Of a stretch of 64,000 bases of DNA, positions 42,486 through 50,189 are shown piece by piece. Positions within the stretch are counted from its first letter, which is position 1; every line of letters begins with the position of its first letter. The notes below the pieces were generated by a model, which saw nothing but the letters and a program-made list of their open reading frames with translations, had not been told where the DNA came from and did no database searches. The translations under genes and the position numbers were made by a program. This stretch comes from Planctomycetota bacterium (lineage in GTDB: Bacteria > Planctomycetota > UBA1135 > GCA-002686595). The stretch lies in assembly GCA_002862085.1 (NCBI GenBank), contig PKCK01000072.1, positions 1 through 64,000 on the forward strand, given 5' to 3'.

Positions 42486-43514
42486 TCAGGCGAAGCCTTC
42501 GCGGTCGGGGTCCGCTCTGGCCTCGAGGAACGCGCCCATCAGCCCCTTCTTGATTCCCGCGCGTGCGTCGGAGTCGTCGAGGCCCTGAACGTCACGAACG
42601 GTCGCGTCCCCGCCCCCATCGACGCCGTCGAGCGCCGTCAGGATGGCGAGCGCTTGCGCATCGGCCTCCAGCGACCCCGTGAGTTCTGCGATGCGGCCGT
42701 TGAGCCGCTCGATGTCGCGCTTGAAAGCCGCCGCGTCCTCGACGTCGGCGACGCCGGCGATCTTCTCCTTGAACTCCTGGACGGTCCGCTCGAGCTCGTT
42801 CTCGCGCCGCGTCCTCGCGTCAGCGGCAGCGGACCCCATGACCTCCTCGGCGACGATGCTCGCAGCGGAGATGAGATCCGCCCCCTCGCTGACGAGGCCC
42901 TCGAGGCGCTGGCGAGATCCCATCACCTCGGCGCGGTCGAGCAGCTCCTCGAGCTCCTGGCGACCGACGGGCTCTCGTTCCCGCTCGCAGAGCTGGGGCA
43001 GCTCCATCTGAACGATTCTGTCGCCGCCGCTTCCGGCGGCCACCCTGACCCCCTCCTCGGCGACCCGTTCCAGGGTCGCGAAGTTCTTCGCACCGGGGTC
43101 CTGGTTGTGGGAGAGTCCGATCGACAGCGTCACGCTCAGAGTGCGATCGTCGAGCTGGAAGACCAGCTCGCGCGCGCCGGCGAGGAGCCGCTCTCCGATG
43201 GCCTTCCCTGCCTTCGGCTCGGTGTGCGGTACGAGCACGACGAGGCGATCGTCGATGACGTAGCCGAGCAGGTCCCCAGCTCTCATGGCTTTCTTGACGA
43301 GATCCACAACCGACATCAGCACCTCGTGCTTCGATTCGTCGCCATGAATCGTCCGGATCTGGGCGAGGTGGTCGACCTGGATCAAGAGACACGCGACGGG
43401 GTACGAGTAGCGCGCGCCGCGCTCGAACTCGACCTGCATCAGCCCGCGCACCTCGTCGCGACTGAAGAGCGCGTTCCCGCGGGCGCTGAAGCTGAGTGTG
43501 GCGGTGTTCGACAT
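42486..43514 (-). CDS. Degenerate GGDEF-domain protein
   Basis: The 342-residue protein has an N-terminal GGDEF-type fold (about 15-165): DEVRGLMQVEFERGARYSYPVACLLIQVDHL, then VVDLVKKAMRAGDLLGYVIDDRLVVLVP, then VTLSIGLSH. The active-site GGDEF is replaced by VIDDR, so cyclic-di-GMP synthesis is unlikely; it may bind nucleotides or only serve regulation. The remainder (180-340) is helical and charged. No membrane segment or receiver domain. Cytoplasmic. ATG at 43514; convergent with the dehydrogenase gene through a shared terminator. Confidence 0.8.
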   Translation of the reverse strand: MSNTATLSFSARGNALFSRDEVRGLMQVEFERGARYSYPVACLLIQVDHLAQIRTIHGDESKHEVLMSVVDLVKKAMRAGDLLGYVIDDRLVVLVPHTEPKAGKAIGERLLAGARELVFQLDDRTLSVTLSIGLSHNQDPGAKNFATLERVAEEGVRVAAGSGGDRIVQMELPQLCEREREPVGRQELEELLDRAEVMGSRQRLEGLVSEGADLISAASIVAEEVMGSAAADARTRRENELERTVQEFKEKIAGVADVEDAAAFKRDIERLNGRIAELTGSLEADAQALAILTALDGVDGGGDATVRDVQGLDDSDARAGIKKGLMGAFLEARADPDREGFA

Positions 43515-43659: not shown

Positions 43660-46600
43660 TCAGTCCCCGAGAGAGGCCAGGAAGGCCACGAGGTCCCTCA
43701 TCTCGGCCCTCGAGAGGTGCGAGGAGACGTCCGCGGGCATCGCGGACACGTCCCGGCGGCGCGCCGTGATCTCGCCCGGCGGGATCTCCCAGACCTCTTT
43801 CTTGGAGGTCTCCACCACGACGAGCGCCTCCGTCTCCTCGAGGATCCTCCCGCTCAGGACCTCGCCGTCGTCGAGGGAGAGCAGCCAGCTCTCGTAGCCA
43901 GCCGCGATCTGCGCGTTCGGTTCCACGATCGATCGGAGGATCTCCTCGCGGGTGAGGCGCTGGCCGACCCCGTCGAGCGCGGGGCCCGCCTCGGAGCCGC
44001 CCTCGTCGCCCACGACGTGGCAGCGCAGGCAGGCGGTCTCGGACTTGCCCGTGAAGATCGCCCGGCCTCGCTCCACGTCGCCGCCCTGCAGGCACATCAG
44101 CCATGCCGCGATCGCGTCACCTGTCTCCGACATCGAGGCCTCACGCTCGCTGAGCGTCGCCTTCACGCGCTCGGAAGGGTGTCGTTCGGCGGCGGCCATC
44201 CACTCCACGAGCTCCGGCGCCGTCGGCTCCAGGTCCGATCCGATCGCCGCGAAGATCTCCGCACACGCCTCCCCGTGAAGCCCACCGAGCACCCTGATGG
44301 CCTCCCGGCGCTCCGCGGGATCCTCGCCCCGGGCGACGGCGTCCAGCGCCACCGCGGCCTCGCTGTCGGGCGTCCGCGCGAACGCAGCGCTCCGCAGGGG
44401 CAAGAGGCCTGGGAGCGTTCGAGCGGCCAGGGCGAAGCCCTGAGCCCTGCGGTCATCGCCGTAACGATCCATCAGCGCCTCGAAGGCCCTGACCCGGTCA
44501 TCGTCCTCGAGCTCCTCGGCCGAGGCGAGGAGACCGAGCGCGGCGCGGCCGTTCGCAGGCGAGGCCGAATCCGCGACCGCGCGGTGGAAGTCGATCATCG
44601 CCACCGCAACGGGCAGCGCGCTCGGCGGACGCACCTCCTTCGTGCCGAAGAGCTCCTGCGCGTTGATCTCGGCGTCGCTCAGCTCCCGACCCTCGAGCGG
44701 GACGGGGCGCAGCGCGGTCTCGATGATCGGGAGATCCATCACCGGGTGCGCTGCCAGCGCCGCGATCGAAGCGCCGTCTCCCCCGCCGATCGGGCGGTGA
44801 TCCATGAGGATCCCGTCGCGGCTGCGAGGCCGGGTCCAATCGGTGAGCACCTCGACCGCCTCGACACGGAGGGCGTCCGCGGCGTCGATGCGGACGGCGA
44901 AGTCCGCGAGACGCTGCGCAGCCTCGGACGATCCGAGCTCGCGGTTCGCCTGGATCACGCGCCGCCACGTCAGCACTTCGTCGTCCGGGCGCAGGTACGG
45001 AAGCCTCGCCGCCAGCTCGGCCATGGCGCCGGCGATCGGCACGTCGTGGATCGCCCGCGCGGCCTCGGCCCGAACGAGGGGGCTGCGATCGTCGAGGAAC
45101 ATCGACACGCGGGCGTCTGCCGCGCGGCGCAGGATCACGACCGCCGCGCGGCGGACATGCTCCGGCCCGCTCTCCGCAGCCGCGATCAGCCGCTCATGAG
45201 CGTCGAGGCGTTCCAGGGCCCGGATGCACGTGTGCCGCATCCACGGATCCTTCGACGCCTCGGCATCGAGCACAGCCATGATCGCGGCGATCGGATCGAC
45301 GCCGCCCTCGAGCGGCGCGAGCTGCGGGATCGCTCCGAGCGCCTCCACGGCCACCCGTCGCACGTGCGGCTCGGGGGAGGAGGTCTGCTCGCAGAGTGCG
45401 GCGAGGACGGCGGGCTGGTTCGCCTTCAGCGCTTCCACGAATCGCTGCGCCTCCCGATCAGCGCCTCCCTCGTCCTCGCTGGCGGCCCACCTCTGCGCAC
45501 CACCGAGCGCCTCCCTCGCGCCGGAGATCAGCTGGACCGCGAGCTCCGGGGACGCACCACCGAGCAGCGAGACGAAGCGCATCCCGGCGACCGACCACCG
45601 GACGTCCTTCCGCGACGCCGCCGCGACGCCGCGGATGAGGTGCGTGCGTGATCGGAGCGATCGGCTCTGGTTCGCGACCATCGAGAGCACCTCCTCGACC
45701 GTCGACGCCGAGCCGCCCGCACGCACCAGGCTCCTCGTGAACGCGCGCTGGGCTCCCTCGCGAACGCGACGGTCGTCGTGGTCGAGGAGCTCCACGCACC
45801 TGGACGGTTCCATGCCCCGGAACCCCCGCGCCAGGAGCGCCCGGACCTCGTCGACCTTCGCCTGCTCACCCGCGTCGCGGGACCGGGGCGAGACGCGGTA
45901 GATCCGCCCCTTGCCCGTCTTGTTGTAGCTCGTGACCCAGTCGCTCCAGTACAGGTCCCCGTCCACGCCGAACTCCACGTCCGTGGGCAGCGCGTCCCAG
46001 ACGAACTTCTCGGTGTCGGCCAGAGCGAAACCGGAGAGGTGCGGATCGTTCCGGAAGGAGTGGATCCCGCTGTAGCCGGGGTTGCCACGGAAGTCGCACA
46101 CGAAGAAGCGGCCGTTCCACTCGGGACCGAAGCCCGTCCCGGGGTAGAGCGTCATCCCGGACGGGCCGCTCGTGAAGTTCTCGATGCAGGGCAGGACGTA
46201 CGCCGGCTGCTCGGGGTGGAACGGGTGCCAGATCTTCTCCTGGTTCCAGGGCCCACGGGTGTGGGGCCGCGAGACCCACTGGTACGCCTGACGCCAGCCT
46301 GTGTCGCTTCCCTCGAGAAGCATCGTCCAGCGCGCCTTGTCGCCGCCGTCGGAGTTGTTGTCGAGGGTGAAGAGGTTCCCCGCCTCGTCGAACACGATCT
46401 CCTGGGGGTTGCGCAGGCCGTCGCAGAACACCTCGAGGTCGGAGCCGTCCAGCTCACACCGGAAGATCGCCCCCATGCCGAGCCTGACGAGTCGTTCGCC
46501 CTCCGCGGTGTCCACGTTGAACCCGCGATCGCCCATCGAGAAGTACAGACGACCGTAGGGTCCGATGACGGGCCCGTGGAGGTCGTGCCCCAGGAGCGCC

Positions 46601-47238
46601 ACCCTCAGCCCGTACCCGGTGCTGTGCCGCTCGCGCTGCTCCGCGACCCCGTCGCCGTCGGCGTCCACGAGCTCCCACATGTCGGGGATGCAGGTGAACC
46701 ACACCTTCACCCCGCCGTCCGGAAGCGTCTCCGTGAGCAGCCCCGCTCCGATCCCCGCCGCCGGGTCGTCGAACCCGGCCGCGAAGACGGTGGAGTCGTC
46801 CGCTTCCCCGTCGCCGTCGGAGTCCACCAGGCGGACCACCCGCTCGGACTCCGTCTCGAACTCCTCCGCGTAGCGCTCGGGAGACAGGTGTTTGCGATAC
46901 ATCGCCACGCGATCCGCCACGGTCCGCGAAGCGAGGTCGTCCTCCAGCCAGTCCATGTGGCCCCGGATGTCCGTGACCCCCTTGGAATGCCGGTACGTCT
47001 CTGCGACGTAGAAACGACCCAGCGCATCGATGGTGAAGGCCACCGGGTGCGCCATCAGGGGCTCGGCCGCGAAGAGGCTGACGCCGAACCCCTCGGGCAG
47101 GGTGAAGCGCGCGATGGCCTCGCGGGCCTCCCGGGACATCTCCGTGGCCGCCGGGGCGTCGCCGTGCGCGAGACCGTCCTGGGGCAGAGGGAGGAGGGGC
47201 GAGACGGTGAGGTACGCGAGCGGGAGGAAGGGGGTCAT
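43660..47238 (-). CDS. PVC-type membrane-associated dehydrogenase with HEAT repeats and c-type heme
   Basis: The 1192-residue secreted protein has the layout typical of planctomycetes: signal peptide, propeller-type dehydrogenase domain (FTLPEGFGVSLFAAEP, FYVAETYRHSKGV, GDGLRNPQEIVFDEAGN-like segments, WRQAYQWVSRPHTRGPWN), two DxDGD calcium loops, HEAT-like repeats (about 480-950), and a C-terminal c-type heme domain (about 1060-1190) with CLRCH and a candidate axial methionine in VSAMPADV. The reaction is unknown; it probably passes electrons from a periplasmic carbohydrate or other substrate. Start ATG 47238. Followed by its own terminator. Confidence 0.92.
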   Translation of the reverse strand: MTPFLPLAYLTVSPLLPLPQDGLAHGDAPAATEMSREAREAIARFTLPEGFGVSLFAAEPLMAHPVAFTIDALGRFYVAETYRHSKGVTDIRGHMDWLEDDLASRTVADRVAMYRKHLSPERYAEEFETESERVVRLVDSDGDGEADDSTVFAAGFDDPAAGIGAGLLTETLPDGGVKVWFTCIPDMWELVDADGDGVAEQRERHSTGYGLRVALLGHDLHGPVIGPYGRLYFSMGDRGFNVDTAEGERLVRLGMGAIFRCELDGSDLEVFCDGLRNPQEIVFDEAGNLFTLDNNSDGGDKARWTMLLEGSDTGWRQAYQWVSRPHTRGPWNQEKIWHPFHPEQPAYVLPCIENFTSGPSGMTLYPGTGFGPEWNGRFFVCDFRGNPGYSGIHSFRNDPHLSGFALADTEKFVWDALPTDVEFGVDGDLYWSDWVTSYNKTGKGRIYRVSPRSRDAGEQAKVDEVRALLARGFRGMEPSRCVELLDHDDRRVREGAQRAFTRSLVRAGGSASTVEEVLSMVANQSRSLRSRTHLIRGVAAASRKDVRWSVAGMRFVSLLGGASPELAVQLISGAREALGGAQRWAASEDEGGADREAQRFVEALKANQPAVLAALCEQTSSPEPHVRRVAVEALGAIPQLAPLEGGVDPIAAIMAVLDAEASKDPWMRHTCIRALERLDAHERLIAAAESGPEHVRRAAVVILRRAADARVSMFLDDRSPLVRAEAARAIHDVPIAGAMAELAARLPYLRPDDEVLTWRRVIQANRELGSSEAAQRLADFAVRIDAADALRVEAVEVLTDWTRPRSRDGILMDHRPIGGGDGASIAALAAHPVMDLPIIETALRPVPLEGRELSDAEINAQELFGTKEVRPPSALPVAVAMIDFHRAVADSASPANGRAALGLLASAEELEDDDRVRAFEALMDRYGDDRRAQGFALAARTLPGLLPLRSAAFARTPDSEAAVALDAVARGEDPAERREAIRVLGGLHGEACAEIFAAIGSDLEPTAPELVEWMAAAERHPSERVKATLSEREASMSETGDAIAAWLMCLQGGDVERGRAIFTGKSETACLRCHVVGDEGGSEAGPALDGVGQRLTREEILRSIVEPNAQIAAGYESWLLSLDDGEVLSGRILEETEALVVVETSKKEVWEIPPGEITARRRDVSAMPADVSSHLSRAEMRDLVAFLASLGD

Positions 47239-47350: not shown

Positions 47351-48502
47351 TCAGCGCGCGCGACGCTCCGCCACGAGCAGGTCCACCATGCGACCGTAGG
47401 ACGCCACTCCTTCCTGGCCCTGGGAGCGCAGATAGGCGTCGTTGACCGCGGTGGCGACGCGACCGGCGGACTCCACCCTCGCGCTGCGCCAGAACCTCGC
47501 CCGCTCCTCGAGCAGGGAGACGACGGACGGACCGAGCGCGAGCGCGCAGTCACGCTGGAGCGCCGGGTCGGCGCGCCGGAGCGCTCCGTGGACGTGGACG
47601 AGCGCCAGGGCCAGCCCCGAGATCCTCAGCGCCGGCGAGCGCGCGCGGCTGGTGACACGCCAGGCCAGGAAGTTCGCCTCGTCCTCGCGGGCCCATCCCT
47701 GCGCGTGGGCGATCTCGTGGCAGGCGACGAACCCGCGGTCGACCGCGGGCAGCCCCGCCGCCACGTGACACTCCTGAGTGTGCGGGCCGAAGATCCCGCT
47801 GATCCCGCAGGCGGTCAGCGCGCGGCTCGCGAGCGGAGCCCGAACGCGGGGAGTCGTGCACCAGCCGAGGTCGGGCTCCTCCTCGAGCCTGGATGCCCAG
47901 GCGTCCGCCGCGAGCTGCGCGACGTCGTGACCGTCCAGGGAACCCTCCAGGGCGCCGAGCTCCATCTCCAGCGTCGCGCCGAGCTCGGCCGCGAGCTCGG
48001 CCAGCTCTGCGGGGGCCGCTGGCCCCGTTCGCAGCTGGAGGCGGGCGGCGAGTGGCTCGCGATTGTGGTTGAGGCCCCAGACGAGCAGGAACGCCACGTA
48101 CAGCCATCCGGCAGCGCCGAGCGCGAAGCGAAGCGCCGCGGAAGGGCCCGCTCGGATCGCTCGCCAACCGCGGAAGCAGAGCACCAGCACGCCGATGAGC
48201 AGGGTCGCCTCCGCGAACGACAGCCGGCCAGCGTCGAGGCCCGCGGGCGGAACGATGCGTTCCCAGGCCCGACTCGAACGCGAGATCGCGCCACCGAGCA
48301 CGGGATAGACCCCCTGGGAGTACCGCTCCTCCACCAGCGACGGATCCGAGCGCGCGAGCAGTGTCAACCCGGCCCCCAGAAGCGACGGGAACAGGGTCCG
48401 CCACCAACCGGATACGGCCGGCGGCCGCGGCTTCCCATCGGAAGGCGCGGCCGCCGGTTGCATCCCGTCTGGCGAGGATCCCGCCGCGGACGGTTCGGTC
48501 AC
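47351..48502 (-). CDS. DUF3810-family membrane protein, metallopeptidase-like
   Basis: The 383-residue protein has two or three N-terminal membrane helices (LLIGVLVLCFRGW, GWLYVAFLLVWGLNHN) and a soluble C-terminal domain with VACHEIAHAQGWAREDEANFLAW, an HExxH zinc motif followed by an acidic residue, as in DUF3810 and related peptidase-like families. NREPLAARLQLR is also characteristic. Catalysis is not shown. The start is a GTG at 48502 that overlaps the stop of the MamK-like gene as GTGA, so the two are translationally coupled. It may act with that actin, but this is inference. Confidence 0.85.
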   Translation of the reverse strand: MTEPSAAGSSPDGMQPAAAPSDGKPRPPAVSGWWRTLFPSLLGAGLTLLARSDPSLVEERYSQGVYPVLGGAISRSSRAWERIVPPAGLDAGRLSFAEATLLIGVLVLCFRGWRAIRAGPSAALRFALGAAGWLYVAFLLVWGLNHNREPLAARLQLRTGPAAPAELAELAAELGATLEMELGALEGSLDGHDVAQLAADAWASRLEEEPDLGWCTTPRVRAPLASRALTACGISGIFGPHTQECHVAAGLPAVDRGFVACHEIAHAQGWAREDEANFLAWRVTSRARSPALRISGLALALVHVHGALRRADPALQRDCALALGPSVVSLLEERARFWRSARVESAGRVATAVNDAYLRSQGQEGVASYGRMVDLLVAERRAR

Positions 48503-49575
48503 TTGAGCTGCTCCCAGTAGTCCTCGGGCATGTCGTGGGCGATCTTCAGGGCGCCGTTGGCGCCCCCGTAGATCGGCTCCTCGATCCGGATCACGTTGCC
48601 GCCGCCGAGCATCTCGTGCATCTCCGCGGTGAGGGCGCGGTCGAGGCCCTTGATCTGGCTTCCGCCTCCGGCGAGCAGGACTCGGCTCTTCAGCTTCTCC
48701 TGGAACTCCGGGTCGAACGATGCGACCAGCTTGCCCAGCCCCTCGACGATCGGCGGGACGATGCGCTGGCAAGCGGTCCGCATCTGCTCCGTGATATCGA
48801 AGTCGGTCGGCTTGCCGTTCACGGGCAACTGCACCACGACGGGCTCGGTCGCGGCGTCGACGGTCGAGTGCCGCTCCTTGATCTCCTTGACCATCTGCTT
48901 GGTGAACTGAGCCTCCGGGAACGCCGCCGCGATCTCCTTCCCGAGCTCCTCGTCCACGAAGTCACCGGCGGTGTTCATGGTGATCTGATCCGACTCCTCG
49001 GGCATCGTTCCGTGCATGCGGCAGAGGTCGACCGTGCCCGCGCCGATGTCGATGACGAGGACGTCCTCGAGCATGTCGAGGCCGTACGCGACCGAGAATG
49101 GCTCCGAGCAGAGCATCACCGAGTCGACGGACTCCCGCGCTGCCTGGAGGATCGCGTCCTTGTTGGTGATCTGCGCCTGAGCGGGGACACCGATCACGGC
49201 GTAGACGAGCTCGTCCTTGCGCGGCTTGGCCTGGCGGACGATCTCCTTCACGAGGTCCATCGCCGCGCGCCGCGAGTCGGCGTCCTCGCTGCCGTCGGCG
49301 TTGAACTTCAGCACCCCGTGCTCGAGGGGGCGGTGCAGGTTCAGTGAGAGGCGCTTGTCGCGGGCCTCGCGGCCGAAGAGAACGTCTTTCTTGAGCAGCT
49401 TGCGCGCCACCGGATCCTTCGGATAGCCGACGAAGGACTCGATGGTCTCGCGTACGCCGTTGCTGGCGGACACGGATGTCCGCGAGGTACCGAGATCGAT
49501 CCCGACGTACAGGACCCCGTGGTCCTTCTTGATGTCTCCTGCGTCCTGGGTGGCGTCGGACATGGTTTCGCTCAT
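48499..49575 (-). CDS. MamK-like bacterial actin
   Basis: ATP-dependent filament-forming protein, 358 residues. It aligns with magnetosome actin MamK from end to end: phosphate-1 GIDLGTSRTSV (25-35), VGYPKDPVARKLL, the HGVL element, YAVIGVPAQAQITNKD, phosphate-2 VIDIGAGTVDLC (174-185), DITEQMRTACQ, adenosine loop VLLAGGGSQIKGL, and a terminal DYWEQL that mirrors the MamK end YWCQL. No other mam gene is visible, so it may be a non-magnetosome relative. Filament function here is inference. Two ATG starts; 49575 is taken. Coupled to the DUF3810 gene and preceded by a helical protein gene. Confidence 0.9.
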   Translation of the reverse strand: MSETMSDATQDAGDIKKDHGVLYVGIDLGTSRTSVSASNGVRETIESFVGYPKDPVARKLLKKDVLFGREARDKRLSLNLHRPLEHGVLKFNADGSEDADSRRAAMDLVKEIVRQAKPRKDELVYAVIGVPAQAQITNKDAILQAARESVDSVMLCSEPFSVAYGLDMLEDVLVIDIGAGTVDLCRMHGTMPEESDQITMNTAGDFVDEELGKEIAAAFPEAQFTKQMVKEIKERHSTVDAATEPVVVQLPVNGKPTDFDITEQMRTACQRIVPPIVEGLGKLVASFDPEFQEKLKSRVLLAGGGSQIKGLDRALTAEMHEMLGGGNVIRIEEPIYGGANGALKIAHDMPEDYWEQLK

Positions 49576-49706: not shown

Positions 49707-50189
49707 CTACAGAGGACGCGAGGAGCCGAAAGTAGCGCTCCCCTGGAGCCTCAGGTTCTCACGGAAGATCGACTCCATGAGGGTCTTCTTGTGCTCTGCC
49801 TGAGCGTCCTCGCGATCGATGCCCTGGACCTCGCGAAACATCGAGGCGACGCCGAGATCCTCGAACCGACGCTCGGAGGACCTCTCCTCCCCCTGCTGCC
49901 CGAGCAAGCTCGTCACCTTCCGTAGCCGGCGCTCGAGGAGGTGGATCTGACGGCGGGCTCGGGGGTCGACCGAGCCACCCGGTCCACCAGCCTGTTCGGC
50001 CGAGGCGTCGGCCTCCAGGGCCCTGACGTCCTCGCTCGGCCCGCCTTCGCTCTCGAGCGGATCACGGCGCACGCGCGCGCTCCCCGGACGCTGCTTGCGC
50101 CGCCGGGAGCCGCTACGCAGGTCGAGATGGTGCACGACGTTCCCGCCGCGCTGCCCTGCCAGTCGTCCGCTCGTGTTGATCCGCTTCAT
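49707..50189 (-). CDS. Small charged helical protein, unknown
   Basis: The 160-residue protein has a basic, disordered first half (RSGSRRRKQRPGS) and a helical second half (RRQIHLLERRLRKVTSLLGQ, then HKKTLMESIFRENLRLQ). No family recognised. It has no signal or membrane segment and is likely cytoplasmic. The ATG at 50189 has GGAG 10 bases upstream. It precedes the MamK-like actin gene by 131 bases on the same strand and might be expressed with it. The amphipathic helices could bind a filament or DNA, but this is only a guess. Confidence 0.65.
   Translation of the reverse strand: MKRINTSGRLAGQRGGNVVHHLDLRSGSRRRKQRPGSARVRRDPLESEGGPSEDVRALEADASAEQAGGPGGSVDPRARRQIHLLERRLRKVTSLLGQQGEERSSERRFEDLGVASMFREVQGIDREDAQAEHKKTLMESIFRENLRLQGSATFGSSRPL

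Follow-up and report, generated by a model that had tools for sequence, protein, structure and literature searches.

A saltatorellin-type actin of Planctomycetota and the conserved upstream gene for its candidate tail partner

A MamK-family actin gene and the gene directly upstream of it constitute, as read from the genomes compared here, a conserved gene pair of Planctomycetota, with one-sided co-occurrence of its members, and with upstream products that have a conserved tail and variable front ends. The pair was analyzed in a window of 64,000 nucleotides, which is the whole stretch of DNA considered (assembly GCA_002862085.1, contig PKCK01000072.1, positions 1 to 64,000), and which is part of a 98.9 kb contig. 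The actin itself is known, and the upstream tail partner is what is new here. The interpretation that we favor, and which we hold to be reasonably probable, is that the actin, saltatorellin, works with the upstream protein as an adaptor, the tail of which would bind actin while the variable front end would regulate, the output being cell shape or internal positioning.

The actin gene is located at 48499-49575 of the (-) strand and codes for 358 amino acids (ATG at 49575, stop codon at 48501-48499, as read in the sequence). Its assignment to the MamK family, as a saltatorellin-type member, is based on NCBIfam, PDB, the identity to a protein of strain Poly30 and a tree. The product scored 431.3 bits, over residues 22-357, with the NCBIfam model NF040964, 'MamK family actin-like protein' (cut-off 400). 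The top PDB chains were 5ljw, 5jyg and 5ljv (E about 1e-77, residues 21-357; labelled 'Actin-like ATPase' in the table), which we take to be Magnetospirillum MamK, and they were followed in the ranking by 8r2n (4e-36), presumably BeeR, and then by MreB (1e-9). About 20 residues precede the actin core, the loops DLGTS, DIGAGT and GGGSQ were seen by eye, and the C-terminus is DYWEQLK. So, the full-length alignment with MamK that had been claimed for this gene in the original prediction was confirmed, and the phosphate and adenosine loops and the terminal YWxQL, also claimed there, were found again. By its sequence, the protein is a complete actin-type ATPase with intact nucleotide loops.

Named genomes were scanned for homologues of the actin, with an alignment of 17 homologues as the query, and the best 80 of at least 549 confirmed places, several of them with short flanks, are referred to below as the named loci. 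The closest relative among these best 80 was a protein of Planctomycetes bacterium Poly30, with 88% identity, and kinship labels place Poly30 and the window genome in the same genus. The strain has been named Saltatorellus ferox Poly30 (PMC10896814). Since the window genome is congeneric with this strain, and the two MamK-type actins are 88% identical, the window actin is almost certainly saltatorellin, and no difference is known in the actin itself. The abstract of the preprint that named saltatorellin reportedly describes it as most similar to MamK, with filaments formed in E. coli and in Magnetospirillum. In the accessible text of a paper that cites a 2019 preprint, saltatorellin is mentioned as an actin-like homologue of Saltatorellus spp. 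that may be involved in shape-shifting, and that mention is silent on an upstream partner (PMC11032199). The degree of cell shape change in Saltatorellus has been described as unprecedented in other bacterial phyla (PMC11481906). The novelty that had been attributed to the actin is thus lost, as its name, and its proposed link to shape-shifting, had been in print for this genus before. MamK relatives of non-magnetotactic bacteria had also been published, in the case of BeeR (PMC11929497), and MamK-like homologues had been set aside as non-Mam (PMC7449369). As to the tail partner, no statement was found in the accessible literature, which excluded the primary preprint and most subscription papers. 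The filament system for another organelle or cargo that had been suggested is retained in part: this is indeed a MamK-type actin outside a visible magnetosome cluster, in a phylum of unusual cells, and an organelle or cargo role is possible, with a role in cell shape at least as likely.

Concerning the relationship to magnetosomes, the gene could be a magnetosomal MamK split from its cluster, or the remnant of a lost cluster. The actin does pass the NCBIfam cut-off for MamK, and the genome (4.39 Mb) is 90% complete in 132 contigs, so that a cluster could be in the missing part. Against this, the search of that whole, 90% complete genome for the magnetochrome domain PF18509, the most specific of the magnetosome markers available, gave no match over the cut-off (best score 16.1 bits, cut-off 30.4), and the single-contig genome of Poly30 (G395) carries the actin too. 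Nearer the gene, the absence of mam genes that had been noted was borne out, as none was found by a Pfam scan of 10 neighbouring ORFs (38961-60973). Across 392 Planctomycetota genomes, the PF18509 marker was over its cut-off in only 4, versus 143 with the actin, counted as a match to NF040964 at 1e-40 or better; three of the four marker genomes (G036, G192 and G378) are among those 143. The same model exceeded its own cut-off in 91/392 genomes, and the label 'MamK' is therefore an annotation hazard in this phylum when set against the four genomes with magnetochrome.

The tree argues in the same direction. It was built with 104 proteins, its planctomycete rows being all the usable phylum-wide loci plus 15 of the 80 named ones, after removal of duplicates and short pieces. 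A clade (100/98) united the window protein with the 96 other planctomycete rows and left outside the MamK of AMB-1 and two family-f93 proteins (from G378 and G374), in a tree with a bootstrap not fully settled and with three magnetosomal-side references only. The marker was over the cut-off in G378 and not in G374. So, the tree sets the actin apart from AMB-1 MamK, from the MamK of the planctomycete magnetosome cluster of G378, and also from MreB. With the presumed MamK chains 5ljw and 5jyg, the window protein shares full-length homology, nucleotide loops and the C-terminal YW.QL, but it belongs to a separate clade, in a genome without the magnetosome marker over its cut-off. It is probably, judging from these comparisons, a non-magnetosomal branch of the MamK family, and a magnetosomal origin is considered highly improbable.

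G378 served as a positive control: the proteins around its MamK have domains that fit MamE, B/M, N, O, P, A and Q, these Mam names being our own presumptive assignments from domain content. The locus (L251, G378:C33:8000-27000) is a compact planctomycete magnetosome cluster in which genes of the MamE type and genes for transporters are close to MamK. The tail motif described below is missing from the ORF upstream of this MamK, which thus differs from the saltatorellin-type partner. As a separate observation, the magnetochrome domain was also over the cut-off in G011 (L253), G192 (L254) and G036 (L255), which are possible magnetotactic members of the phylum; G192 contains, in addition to this domain, a saltatorellin-type pair.

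Other actin-like families were also considered. The actin scored 60.8 bits with the MreB family PF06723, versus 454 bits for the genome's own MreB, which is a separate gene and lies far from the actin in the tree, and the identification as MreB was rejected. FtsA was disfavored on scores (27.5 bits with the Pfam family, cut-off 31.8), FtsA being outside the tree set. A connection with the actin-like protein of Candidatus Uab amorphum was set aside, since that protein has been reported to cluster with the actins of Asgard and of eukaryotes (PMC6906331). We regard it as quite improbable that the actin belongs functionally with BeeR of Verrucomicrobiota and forms BeeR-like three-stranded tubes. 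BeeR is the next closest solved structure, and it lies inside the large planctomycete clade of the tree; however, it does so on a branch of length 5.04, because of which its place is unreliable. It shares with the window actin the character of a MamK-related actin of non-magnetotactic PVC bacteria (PMC11929497). On the other hand, the window actin reached 209 bits with the NCBIfam model NF053558, far below the BeeR cut-off of 530, and the roughly 20 residues before its core contrast with the 30-50 of BeeR, whose long N-terminal extension it lacks.

The gene upstream of the actin (49707..50189, (-) strand) codes for a short protein of 160 amino acids, with a coiled-coil-like region and a conserved C-terminal tail, and 131 nt separate its end from the actin ATG. 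It had no Pfam or NCBIfam match, and it was recognized by the tail profile A2 with E 8.6e-25 (49731-50021). The conserved tail of the partners consists of coiled coil plus a short helix, LxxIFxxNLxLR, with a near-invariant Asn. In the short partner, the motif is LMESIFRENLRLQ (49743..49781, (-) strand), which is proposed as an actin-binding helix from alignments and from its enrichment versus controls. A second partner copy in the window, named P0002 (42486..43562, (-) strand, 358 amino acids), is a long form in which Pfam and the tail profile (E 1.6e-9, 42522-42752) delineate a degenerate GGDEF domain, coiled coil and tail. The C-terminal region is thus common to the short partner, to P0002 and, in most relatives, to the product of the gene that immediately precedes the actin. 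P0002 is the sole case among 40 long partners in which the tail Asn is replaced (39/40 keep it), unlike the short partner next to the actin, which keeps it; no frame slip behind the altered tail was seen in the three forward frames. In this genus, then, the long, GGDEF-bearing copy is about 7 kb downstream of the actin, and the short, sensor-less copy adjoins it. The window genome has three copies of the tail protein, since contig 19 holds one in addition to the two just described. This third, unlinked one (L226, 1510-2442, (-) strand; listed ORF of 310 amino acids) has an intact tail, and similar unlinked tail matches occur in three genomes of the genus.

A helical protein gene had been noted to precede the actin, and it proved to be the conserved neighbour: a first profile, derived from the best 80 named loci themselves, placed a partner region immediately upstream of the actin, on its strand and at most 500 nt from the actin core, in 75 of them. 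The five negatives were L072, L073, L074, L077 and L079, of which L077 and L079 were matched by an iterated profile, while the motif is present in L072 and L073, and a weaker form of it in L074. With 60 more loci taken over the phylum, and with places obtained twice left out, 167 loci were available, from which 7 duplicates were dropped to leave 160 distinct actin ORFs. An upstream partner was recognized in 129 of them by the iterated profile, in 142 by the profile or the strict motif, and in 145 by the profile or the loose motif anywhere in the ORF, counts which include related, non-independent loci with shared ancestry uncorrected, and in which some of the loci had already served to define the profile and the motif. 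For the 59 distinct loci taken after the motif was fixed, the corresponding numbers were 41 by the profile and 46 by the profile or the loose motif.

The strict motif, [LIVMF]xx[LIVM][LIVMF]xxNxx[LIVMW][RKQ] within the last 40 residues, was present in 117/158 upstream zones, versus 0/157 opposite-strand and 1/155 downstream zones. Among 4262 other ORFs of 150 amino acids or more, it occurred in 12, which are second partner copies or likely kin; the same listing with duplicate actins included has 13 such ORFs, 11 of which carry the partner profile, while the remaining two (in L072 and L073) give a weak alignment with P0002, in the equivalent relative position. As relatives are not independent, and some of these loci were used to define the motif, nominal p-values for this enrichment are not to be read literally. 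The chance level of the loose motif anywhere in the ORF was 2/159 for opposite-strand and 6/155 for downstream zones. An observation apart is that the upstream proteins of L004, L006, L009 and L027 contain the short tail motif two or three times, like a repeated binding peptide.

No recognisable upstream partner was found in 15 of the 160 loci (L016, L074, L152, L154, L155, L164, L166, L167, L168, L174, L176, L177, L182, L204 and L209). In L016 and L182 the contig end is too near to judge, and L074 and L166 contain weak variants by eye. Seven of the partner-negative loci are one actin clade (94/98, not fully supported), and profile matches exist elsewhere in four genomes of this clade (G166, G180, G256 and, weakly, G068).

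At the level of genomes, a profile of the C-terminal region built from 27 rows gave matches at 1e-4 or better in 101 of the 392 phylum genomes, and all 101 are among the 143 actin genomes; in the 249 Planctomycetota genomes without actin there was none. The other 42 actin genomes had no profile match, and several of them show the motif alone. In genomes with two actins, the partner was upstream of every one of them (22/22 actins of 11 named genomes, picked by accession from the best 80). The window actin belongs to a clade that is spread over much of Planctomycetota, and is encoded alongside a separate MreB.

These data bear on the possibility that saltatorellin acts alone as a shape filament, and that the upstream gene merely stays beside it in the operon for the sake of co-regulation. 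A recognisable upstream partner is indeed lacking for some actins of the clade, and the short partner of the genus has no recognised domain. Nevertheless, a neighbour of that kind is difficult to reconcile with the absence of the tail profile from all actin-less genomes, with the partner kept by each actin of the two-actin genomes, and with a tail motif that persists while the remainder of the partner changes. We consider the lone filament unlikely.

Concerning the changing part of the partners, a GGDEF-like front part could be aligned in 45 of 74 partner ORFs of 250 amino acids or more (named loci plus the window), and the degenerate GGDEF is a feature of many relatives from the order of the window genome. 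P0002 scored 47.6 bits with Pfam GGDEF, above the cut-off of 23.8; its aligned site lacks the GGDEF motif, and RAGD occupies the I-site position. The model of its Poly30 homologue (mean pLDDT 82.6) matched GGDEF structures in Foldseek (E 5e-12) and displays a GGDEF fold, after which come long helices and, set apart from them, a terminal helix. The catalytic signature GG[DE]EF was absent at the aligned site from all 40 long partners, and an active diguanylate cyclase was rejected on this basis; the plain string GG[DE][EF] was found in 1/40, away from the aligned catalytic site, and RxxD at the I-site position in 29 of the 40 aligned long partners.

The front end of the L179 partner, from another lineage, adopts a PilZ fold in the sole model obtained (mean pLDDT 75.5, near 90 in the barrel). 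Its 13 Foldseek matches at 0.001 or better (E 6.5e-05) were all to PilZ domains or PilZ-containing cellulose synthase complexes, and the partners of L183, L186 and L188 resemble it by eye. RxxxR strings occur in the first part of 5/17 partners, including L179, by eye not in the usual place. The motif [DN]xSxxG occurs in the first part of 1/17, L205, by eye outside its PilZ part, and is absent from the PilZ-like part of L179. Other partners have front ends with helical regions. A middle helical region, common to many partners by eye, had no Pfam or NCBIfam match at the cut-off, and in the tail region no family of either database reached the cut-off in the 10 partners scanned. The likeness to degenerate c-di-GMP receptors, such as the GGDEF domain of FimX and the PilZ domain of Alg44, lies in the Foldseek fold matches; the differences are that the signature motifs of the partners are degraded, and that their front ends are fused to a coiled coil and to a tail without family in the 10 scanned. 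In view of these degraded motifs, control of the partner by c-di-GMP is put forward as a possibility and not as a firm claim.

A shared tail with front ends that vary is what adaptors might look like, which would also suit a filament that segregates or positions a cargo (a granule, a membrane compartment or DNA) in the manner of ParMRC or MamK-MamJ, with the partner as a cargo adaptor and the cell not being shaped. Of the families whose function is known, MamK is the nearest, and the third, unlinked tail protein of the genome can be counted in favor of a cargo as well. However, no DNA-binding or phasin family reached the Pfam cut-off in the 10 partners scanned, and of the 13 window genes tested in the best 80 named loci, only the two tail proteins occur in more than 18. 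A purely cargo-positioning system is rated as improbable.

The adaptor interpretation that we favor can be put in the form of a mechanism. The actin would polymerise into dynamic filaments, and the partner would dimerise via its coiled coil. The tail helix would dock on the actin, and the probable site, by analogy, is the groove that subdomains IA and IIA form. The variable front end might set where and when filaments form, and the output might be control of cell shape or internal positioning, shape-shifting being the obvious candidate in Saltatorellus. The precedent for the docking step is crenactin, whose hydrophobic groove is bound by the C-terminus of arcadin-2, in the place where ParR binds ParM (PMC5173319). 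The present pair would work like these two systems, in the case of arcadin-2 with the C-terminal helix of a protein from the same gene cluster in the groove of the actin, but it differs from them in the domains of the partner. If the tail protein regulates the filament, the mechanism of shape-shifting in Saltatorellus could be put to the test with no more than two proteins and a peptide of 13 residues. If true, this would also provide a defined bacterial actin-binding motif, comparable with ParR, arcadin-2 and WH2. A wider version, tentative and to our mind rather doubtful as a whole, is a hitherto unrecognised two-component cytoskeleton in a large part of the phylum, in which a MamK-type actin would be controlled by a co-encoded adaptor with a C-terminal helix as a bacterial WH2-type counterpart, tied to signalling by exchangeable GGDEF and PilZ front ends, and driving the shape-shifting of Saltatorellus.

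On its other side, the actin gene is followed by a DUF3810 gene (47351..48502, (-) strand; PF12725, 183 bits), whose GTG start codon lies with the actin stop in a 4-nt overlap, GTGA (48502-48499). The translational coupling that had been proposed is real as far as this overlap is concerned; it is lineage-specific, with a DUF3810 neighbour in 16 of the best 80 named loci, several of which have short flanks, and DUF3810 was rejected as a general partner of the actin on this count. Farther along, between the actin operon and P0002, the (-) strand encodes at 43660-47238 a large protein in which DUF7133, HEAT repeats and a cytochrome c domain are combined, and which was present in 11 of the best 80 named loci.
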